The position numbers and the translations under genes are program-made. The notes under the pieces are model-generated. The model made no database searches, was not told the origin of the DNA, and saw nothing but the letters and a program-made list of their open reading frames with translations. Shown piece after piece: positions 11,734 to 13,324 of a DNA stretch of 64,000 nt. Each line of letters starts with the position of its first letter. Position 1 is the first letter of the stretch. This DNA comes from Rhodococcus sp. Z13 (GTDB lineage Bacteria > Actinomycetota > Actinomycetes > Mycobacteriales > Mycobacteriaceae), in NCBI RefSeq assembly GCF_025837095.1, contig NZ_CP107551.1, forward strand, positions 3,094,668 to 3,158,667. The letters are read 5' to 3'.

Positions 11734-12081
11734 TCAGACTATTCCGCGCTTGAGGCGGCGACGTTCCCGTTCGGAAAGTCCGCCCCAGATACCGAACCGC
11801 TCGTCGTGAGCGAGGGCGTATTCGAGACATTCGTCCCGAACCTCACAGCCCATGCAGATGCGCTTGGCCTCCCGCGTGGAGCCACCCTTCTCGGGGAAGA
11901 ATGCCTCCGGGTCGGTCTGTGCACAGAGCGCACGCTCCTGCCACTGTTCCCCACCGTCGTCCGGGTCTCCGAACCCCGAGATCAAACTCAGGATGGGCGC
12001 CCCGTAATCCGGATCGTCACAGACGCTCTCGCCTGCAGTGTCCGTCCGAGTGAGCTCGAAGATGTCGCGCTCGCCGGCCAT
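11734..12081 (-). CDS. whiB2: WhiB-family iron-sulfur regulator WhiB2 (WhmD)
   Basis: A 115-aa [4Fe-4S] transcription factor required for septation in mycobacteria. The four cluster ligands are C53, C76, C79 and C85 (CMGCEVRDEC), followed by the GIWGG turn (97-101) and the basic tail RERRRLKR that contacts DNA or sigma factor. The ATG at 12081 is preceded by GAGGAGGG. It sits upstream of and divergent from fbiA, as in M. tuberculosis. A long leader contains a perfect LexA-type palindrome (12139-12154), which suggests that DNA damage affects this division regulator. Confidence 0.95.
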   Translation of the reverse strand: MAGERDIFELTRTDTAGESVCDDPDYGAPILSLISGFGDPDDGGEQWQERALCAQTDPEAFFPEKGGSTREAKRICMGCEVRDECLEYALAHDERFGIWGGLSERERRRLKRGIV

Positions 12082-12138
12082 TGTCCCTCCTCACCTGCAG
12101 CGCCGAATCATGACCGGGGGTCAACCCGCTGCCATTCG

Positions 12139-12154
12139 TCGAACAGTCGTTCGA
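12139..12154. promoter_or_regulatory. LexA (SOS) box in the whiB2 leader
   Basis: TCGAACAGTCGTTCGA matches the actinobacterial LexA consensus TCGAAC-N4-GTTCGA with perfect 6-bp arms. It sits inside a wider palindrome (CATTCG at 12133-12138, CGAATG at 12152-12157). It lies 58 nt upstream of the whiB2 ATG and about 50-60 nt downstream of the predicted transcription start. Confidence 0.75.
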
Positions 12155-12208
12155 ATGCGGGATCACCGCAAGGAAACTCGGATTCGATTACCGAATGACA
12201 CGTATGTG

Positions 12209-12237
12209 ATTACACACTTCGGGTGTGTCGCGGTCAA
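12209..12237 (-). promoter_or_regulatory. whiB2 promoter
   Basis: On the minus strand TTGACC (12237-12232) and TGTAAT (12214-12209) are separated by exactly 17 nt, a good housekeeping-type promoter. The transcript would start near 12202, giving a leader of about 120 nt that includes the LexA box. Confidence 0.65.
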
Positions 12238-12322
12238 GCGGAGCGGCGCTGTTCACATATCATCGGCCGGTTTGCCTCGAGCCGCTTCGGATGGCGCGCG
12301 ACCGGGTGCGGGGTGCACCGCT

Positions 12323-12328
12323 TAGGCT
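12323..12328 (+). promoter_or_regulatory. -10 box of fbiA (leaderless)
   Basis: TAGGCT ends 6 nt before the fbiA GTG. No ribosome-binding site precedes the start. Confidence 0.5.
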
Positions 12329-12334
12329 TGGCCC

Positions 12335-13324
12335 GTGAATGTGACTGTATTGGTCGGAGGTGTCGGTGGGGCGCGTTTTCTCAAAGGTTTGCGCCGACTT
12401 CTCGATATTTCCCCCGGCGTCGACCCGGATCCGGACGCGCCGCACCGCATCACGGCGATCGTCAACGTCGGCGACGACGTCTGGATGCACGGCCTGAGGA
12501 TCTGTCCCGACCTCGACACCTGCATGTACACCCTGGGTGGCGGGATCGACGAGGAACGCGGCTGGGGCCGCGCCGGTGAGACCTGGAGCGCCAAGGAGGA
12601 ACTCGCCGCCTACGGCGCCATCCCCGATTGGTTCGGTCTCGGCGACCGCGACATCGCCACGCATCTCATCCGCACGCAGATGCTGCGCACCGGCTACCCC
12701 CTGTCCGCGATCACCGAAGCGCTGTGCACACGCTGGAAGCCGGGCGTGACCCTGCTGCCCGCCTCCGACGACCGCAGCGAGACCCACGTCGTCATCACCG
12801 ATCCCGAGGACGGCGAACAGCGCGCCGTGCACTTCGAGGAGTGGTGGGTGCGGCACCGCGCCCAGGTGACCACCCACAGCTTCGCGCACATCGGCGCGGA
12901 GGAGGCCAAGCCCGCCCCCGGTGTCCTCGAGGCGATCGAGAACGCCGACGCGGTGCTGCTGGCCCCGTCGAACCCGGTGGTGAGCGTCGGTGCGATCCTC
13001 GCGATCCCCGGCATCCGCGGTGCCCTGCGCACCACCTCCGCCAAAGTCGTGGGCCTGTCCCCGGTCATCGACGGAAAGCCCCTGCGCGGTATGGCCGACG
13101 CCTGCCTGGACGTCATCGGCGTCGAGACCAGCGCGGAGGCCGTGGGCCGCTGGTACGGCGCCCGCTCGGGCACCGGCATCCTCGACGGCTGGCTCGTGCA
13201 CTCCACCGACACCGCCGAGGTGCCGGGTGTGGAGGTCCGCTCCGTGCCGCTGCTCATGACCGACACCGACGCGACCGCCGAGATGGCCCGCGCCGCCCTC
13301 GAACTGGCCGGAGCGAACCTGTGA
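12335..13324 (+). CDS. fbiA: 2-phospho-L-lactate transferase (F420 biosynthesis)
   Basis: CofD-type enzyme that joins the phospholactate or phosphoenolpyruvate-derived moiety to the deazaflavin Fo, making F420-0 or its dehydro form. The 329-aa protein begins with the nucleotide-binding loop [33 protein letters not shown] and [11 protein letters not shown] are family signatures. The leaderless GTG start lies 6 nt after TAGGCT. The TGA stop overlaps the fbiB start, so fbiA and fbiB are translationally coupled. Confidence 0.95.

Follow-up and report, generated by a model that had tools for sequence, protein, structure and literature searches.

Division arrest under DNA damage in actinobacteria without SulA-type inhibitors is only partly understood. 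The stretch of Rhodococcus sp. Z13 DNA analysed here (64,000 nucleotides, referred to below as the window) raises this issue at the division regulator whiB2, whose inferred leader contains TCGAACAGTCGTTCGA, a perfect 16-bp dyad (TCGAAC-AGTC-GTTCGA) at 12139-12154. We ask whether this palindrome is a LexA operator, how it is placed relative to the elements controlling whiB2, and in which direction it would link whiB2 to the SOS response.

A SOS box at this gene has a precedent, which the initial annotation of the locus had overlooked: a whiB2 SOS box has been published for M. tuberculosis, where a single one upstream of whiB2 and fbiA is attributed to Davis 2002 in the available passages of PMC4181829. 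The perfect whiB2 box described here adds to that known site, with which it shares, following the same passages, the intergenic region, the TCGAAC-N4-GTTCGA motif and the divergent genes. The two differ in that the dyad is perfect here and known from its sequence, the M. tuberculosis side being taken by description only.

Genes and promoter of the whiB2-fbiA locus

The whiB2 gene (11734..12081, minus strand) encodes a WhiB family protein (PF02467) of 115 aa and lies next to the divergent fbiA/cofD (TIGR01819; 12335..13324, plus strand); both were identified from their open reading frames and domain matches, and together they form the gene pair described for M. tuberculosis. The promoter hexamers given in the initial annotation as TTGACC-17-TGTAAT were confirmed at 12237-12209, from hexamer position and from relatives: on the minus strand, a -35 element TTGACC (12232..12237) and a -10 element TGTAAT (12209..12214; TCTAAT in many relatives) are separated by 17 bases, and in most relatives TTGACC, replaced by variants in a few, stands at the corresponding position, followed after 17 or 18 bases by TCTAAT or TGTAAT. 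A strict sigma-70 scan of 12050-12400 returned no promoter, TGTAAT being devoid of the A at position 2. Transcription would start near 12201-12203, as judged from the -10 spacing, which gives a putative 5' leader at 12082..12203 on the minus strand. The location of the palindrome in this leader, between promoter and ATG, was also as first annotated and is conserved in relatives.

The same promoter carries a second element, this one missed by the initial annotation. According to the available part of PMC9040748, McdR (Rv1830) represses whiB2 in mycobacteria via AATnACAnnnnTGTnATT, which in M. tuberculosis lies around the start site, and McdR binding is stated again in a passage of PMC10336103. 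The sequence AATCACATACGTGTCATT (12194..12211, minus strand) matches AATnACAnnnnTGTnATT exactly, is its sole match in the window, and overlaps both the -10 element and the inferred start region of whiB2; judged by its letters, it is the published operator of this whiB2 repressor and is annotated here as a predicted Rv1830-type McdR operator. The candidate McdR of this genome is a MerR protein within a garA-MerR-BFN domain-MerR cluster (L116), where the garA label was given by reading of the sequence. The gene order of this cluster is presumably that of Rv1827-Rv1830. The exact AATnACAnnnnTGTnATT at the whiB2 start region and the candidate McdR liken the locus to the McdR-WhiB2 feedback loop of PMC9040748, from which it differs by the LexA-type box, LexA having 0 occurrences in that paper.

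Two observations extend beyond the operator itself. In the window (12223-12230, minus strand) and the other own-genus loci, L103-L112 among them, the -35/-10 spacer contains one of two related motifs: cGACACAc in the window and six others, and cGACACGc in 10 of the 17. cGACACGc is given as the WhiB2 motif in the available part of PMC9040748, so that WhiB2 may act on its own promoter. The McdR motif was also found at whiB2-like genes beyond mycobacteria, including those of Amycolatopsis, Saccharothrix, Brevibacterium and Propionimicrobium, among the non-family loci counted below.

Match quality of the palindrome

The absence of any mismatch to the LexA consensus, claimed in the initial annotation, was verified. 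Matches with up to three mismatches number 85 in the window; the whiB2 box alone among them has none, and no site has exactly one. Genome-wide (4.53 Mb), the whiB2 box is one of two perfect copies, and 73 sites carry at most one mismatch. Simulation of the 253-bp whiB2-fbiA gap by a first-order Markov model (20000 copies) never yielded a perfect site, and gave a P of ~1.3e-3 for a site with at most one mismatch. A first-order Markov model of the window, scaled to the genome, gave 0 perfect and 17.7 one-mismatch sites vs the 73 counted with at most one mismatch. As these near-matches exceed the model expectation (~18) in a TCGA-rich genome, the motif by itself is weak evidence, and genome-wide uniqueness was dropped as proof in view of the 73 near-matches. 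The other perfect box, at 2690833 of the genome (L001 1501-1516), is flanked by a HEPN_SAV_6107 gene and by a divergent ORF that was labelled acetyltransferase-like by reading of its sequence.

The genome codes for LexA (L113), with its DNA-binding and S24 peptidase domains and with residues 126-237 aligning to PDB 6a2q, named LexA repressor, as well as for RecA (L115). A second LexA-type protein, encoded near 2.555 Mb (L114 1429-2115, plus strand), has LexA DNA-binding and S24 domains and scores above the cut-off of TIGR00498. The comparison with the genome's own recA and lexA sites, proposed in the initial annotation, came out in favour of the whiB2 box: ranked by mismatch count rather than by matrix score, it is nearer the LexA consensus (0 mismatches) than the recA box TCGAACGCGTGTTCGG (1), 147 bp before the recA ORF, and than the three lexA boxes TCAAACACGTGTTCGA (1), TCGAACATGTGATCGA (1) and TCGAACAGACTTTCGT (2), 74 to 156 bp before the lexA ORF. 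All are of the same operator type; they differ in position, the recA and lexA boxes being upstream of their ORFs and the whiB2 box downstream of a conserved promoter.

Conservation among relatives

Conservation was assessed on 80 named whiB2-like loci (the best 80 of 577) and 17 own-genus loci (from 17 of 18 genomes), which were sorted manually, on the basis of record titles and general taxonomy, into family (70) and non-family (27) loci. A box was counted when it had at most two mismatches and lay within 110 bp downstream of the McdR motif. Within the family, 67 of the 70 sampled loci carry the exact McdR motif and 57 of these 67 a box; one further family locus, L030, combines the box with a McdR motif that deviates by one letter. 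Outside the family, the McdR motif is present in 17 of the 27 sampled loci, and none of these 17 has a box. With a stricter pattern, the McdR-box architecture was retrieved in 173 of 401 family genomes, at least one of which is a chance match (G227, without the right half of the McdR motif). In an order-wide draw, split by hand into family and non-family, it was found in 43 of 55 family genomes vs 2 of 243 others, both of the latter without the McdR right half. In four Nocardia loci (L004, L006, L007 and L009), a second, weaker box (two mismatches) starts 12 bp upstream and shares TCGA of the first.

The box is missing from 12 family loci: both Tsukamurella, one Corynebacterium, one of the four Gordonia, one of the 11 Nocardia, one of the two Mycolicibacter and six of the 17 own-genus loci, the other 11 of which, window included, have it. 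The initial annotation had named absence of the palindrome from close relatives as evidence against its reading, and the own genus divides on this point, the six loci without the box speaking against that reading and the 11 loci with it speaking in its favour. In a tree of the flanking DNA, the own-genus loci without the box fall on two branches (L103/L104/L107 and L108-L110), with a support of 1.000 for the separating split. The box would have been lost either twice or only once with one regain, and its absence from two separate branches indicates that it is dispensable in some own-genus lines. The close relatives without the box on both branches retain the McdR motif.

Placement of the box relative to promoter and gene

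In the window, the box begins 54 bp past the -10 element. Across 58 loci, the distance from McdR-motif start to box start (search range 18-110 bp) ranges from 54 to 76 bp (mean 57.9, sd 3.3), vs 186 to 584 (sd 84) between the box and the conserved WQERALC codon, an interval comprising the leader and the variable N-terminus. To repeat this geometry beyond the limits of the leader, sites with at most one mismatch were collected within 600 bp on either side of the McdR motif in 67 family loci, with L053, L059 and L080 left out: of 53 such sites, 51 start 54-59 bp after the McdR-motif start, and the remaining two at 72 and 76 bp. The small spread on the promoter side, compared with the gene side, and the common place of 51 of the 53 sites together point to a box that is tied to the promoter and not to the gene. 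In L071 and Gordonia-like genomes, the McdR-to-box interval is ~14-15 bp longer and contains a near-repeat of GAGATCGAGAACC.

Column conservation in 40 non-redundant sequences is ~0.6 bits between the two operators and ~0.2 after the box, and reaches 2.0 bits in 8 of the 12 specified box positions; these values are partly circular and inflated in the box columns, the sequences having been picked for motif and box.

It is this conserved placement, rather than the motif match, that settles the prediction of a LexA site. The 73 near-matches of the genome are what an origin by chance from TCGA-rich DNA would draw on, and such an origin is contradicted by the conservation of 51 of 53 near-perfect sites at one place in relatives, which makes it scarcely credible. 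Of the features of an actinobacterial LexA operator, a 16-bp dyad, a genome encoding LexA and RecA, and conservation at the same gene are found here. On its perfect dyad, conservation and fixed place, the palindrome (12139..12154, annotated without strand) is a predicted LexA operator, or SOS box, in a conserved two-operator layout of McdR and LexA sites at whiB2.

Second promoters and RNA structure

The initial annotation had also envisaged an unseen second promoter, for which the relatives offered no support. TANNNT near the box did not occur at any one offset in more than 3 of the 40 sequences, on either strand. Since TANNNT fails to describe even the whiB2 promoter, looser hexamers were tried, and TNNAAT recurred near the box only as TCGAAT at the box edges (19/40 sense, 28/40 antisense), which consists of box letters plus an A/T neighbour. 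A TTG 16-19 bases upstream accompanied none of the sense and one of the antisense occurrences of TCGAAT, and no recurrent -35/-10 pair overlapping the box was detected in the 40 sequences. The -10-like TCGAAT may by itself provide a weak start.

As part of the inferred transcript, the palindrome might fold into a 6-bp stem and represent a leader RNA hairpin rather than a DNA operator. Box variation points the other way: in 57 boxes, positions 5 and 12 are unpaired in 30 and positions 1 and 16 in 10, and two-sided compensation occurs at neither pair. Moreover, the inferred leader folds no better than its own shuffles (z 0.26), and no Rfam match attained the gathering score, those returned being below threshold. 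The hairpin was rejected on the non-pairing box variants and the ordinary leader fold, and we regard it as very improbable.

Probable effect of LexA on whiB2

The box does not overlap the whiB2 promoter, an overlap that occlusion would require; classical occlusion of the whiB2 promoter by LexA is thus unlikely, because the box lies too far downstream. Counted from the inferred start, the LexA site in the whiB2 leader would occupy roughly +48 to +65, downstream of a putative sigma-A-type promoter carrying the McdR operator over its -10/start region; LexA bound there would take effect once initiation is over, from a distance, or through some other, weak promoter. The two operators were also considered for helical phasing, which was rejected because their spacing varies between 54 and 59 bp, with two sites at 72 and 76 bp; such variation speaks against a rigid contact that depends on phase.

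The direction of the effect can be approached through M. tuberculosis. In the available passages of PMC4181829, whiB2 is anti-correlated with the LexA regulon, as confirmed with mitomycin C by Smollett 2012 (cited therein), fbiA is unresponsive, and the authors infer that LexA is an inducer of whiB2. A passage of PMC7911356 reports whiB2 at 0.32 +/- 0.02-fold with moxifloxacin; this paper, which also cites Davis 2002, takes the non-induction as confirming doubts on LexA binding at the whiB2 promoter. Other studies, as far as their accessible text extends, give less: 'whiB' is absent from the main text of a mitomycin study of a M. tuberculosis recA deletion (PMC8151990), and in M. smegmatis treated with ciprofloxacin lexA and radA are up and whmD (whiB2) is unnamed among the raised genes (PMC8870461). 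In the open-licence literature, no paper joined LexA with whcD and Corynebacterium glutamicum, or whmD with SOS and mitomycin, and no Rhodococcus study on SOS and whiB2 was among the matches listed.

Because of this published direction in M. tuberculosis, a positive mode of LexA action, with whiB2 lowered by SOS, is favoured. The whiB2 gene would be SOS-linked through its LexA operator and, by analogy with M. tuberculosis, would be lower while damage lasts, helping to restrain septation. We give about an even chance to this combination of a non-occluding leader operator with a net SOS-lowered whiB2. Several points stand against it. We know of no structural reason for positive LexA action at whiB2. 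In the passages reporting the whiB2 fall, its dependence on LexA is left undemonstrated, and those of PMC7911356 express doubts on LexA binding; own-genus lines without the box exist; and in Streptomyces, too, mitomycin C lowers whiB, for which the available part of PMC9380542 mentions no box. From the same part of PMC9380542, a likeness to the favoured mode is found in Streptomyces venezuelae, where positively LexA-linked genes with LexA sites, such as whiI and smeA, are developmental or division-related and lowered by damage; these are other genes, and whiB is reported there as lowered only.

LexA bound in the leader could instead be a plain roadblock to elongating RNA polymerase, from which damage would release it, raising whiB2, perhaps for post-repair division; in that case, McdR or growth arrest would be behind the decrease observed in M. 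tuberculosis. In favour of this reading, the whole box follows the inferred start and no -35/-10 pair recurs across it, LexA is among the natural roadblocks listed in the available part of PMC10310618, and the spacing of 54-59 bp (outliers 72 and 76), without helical lock, is more in keeping with a roadblock than with LexA contacting polymerase or McdR rigidly. We nevertheless consider the roadblock rather unlikely, for it predicts the direction opposite to that published in M. tuberculosis (whiB2 falls in the passages of PMC7911356 and PMC4181829), and a near-constant promoter distance is observed though a roadblock has no need of one. That LexA binds with little effect on whiB2, the damage-linked fall being indirect through McdR or growth arrest, appears less probable still. 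It would account for the missing box on two own-genus branches and in both Tsukamurella and single Gordonia and Nocardia loci, and for the drop of Streptomyces whiB after mitomycin C in the excerpt of PMC9380542, but the box hardly changes its place from genus to genus, within a weakly conserved leader (~0.6 and ~0.2 bits), which implies selection.

The favoured SOS-lowered reading can be made more specific as a conserved two-operator checkpoint of Mycobacteriaceae, with McdR at the start and LexA ~54-58 bp downstream (centre to centre), acting from within the leader without occlusion, so that SOS would lower whiB2 by a non-classical mode of LexA action; we put this forward as a tentative proposal. 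In one form of it, LexA would silence weak antisense transcription starting from TCGAAT at the edge of the box, which, if left unchecked, would reach into the whiB2 promoter.

Significance for damage-linked division control

Among the open-licence matches listed, no account was seen of McdR and LexA sites in a fixed layout, of how far this layout extends in the family, or of its lack on two own-genus branches; McdR/Rv1830 and LexA occur together in PMC12889156 alone, once each. Through this box, division is probably coupled to DNA damage. A LexA site that is this widespread, at a gene regulating division and fixed beside a McdR operator, would bear on damage-linked division arrest, for which the close relatives that lack the box and keep the McdR motif may serve as natural controls.
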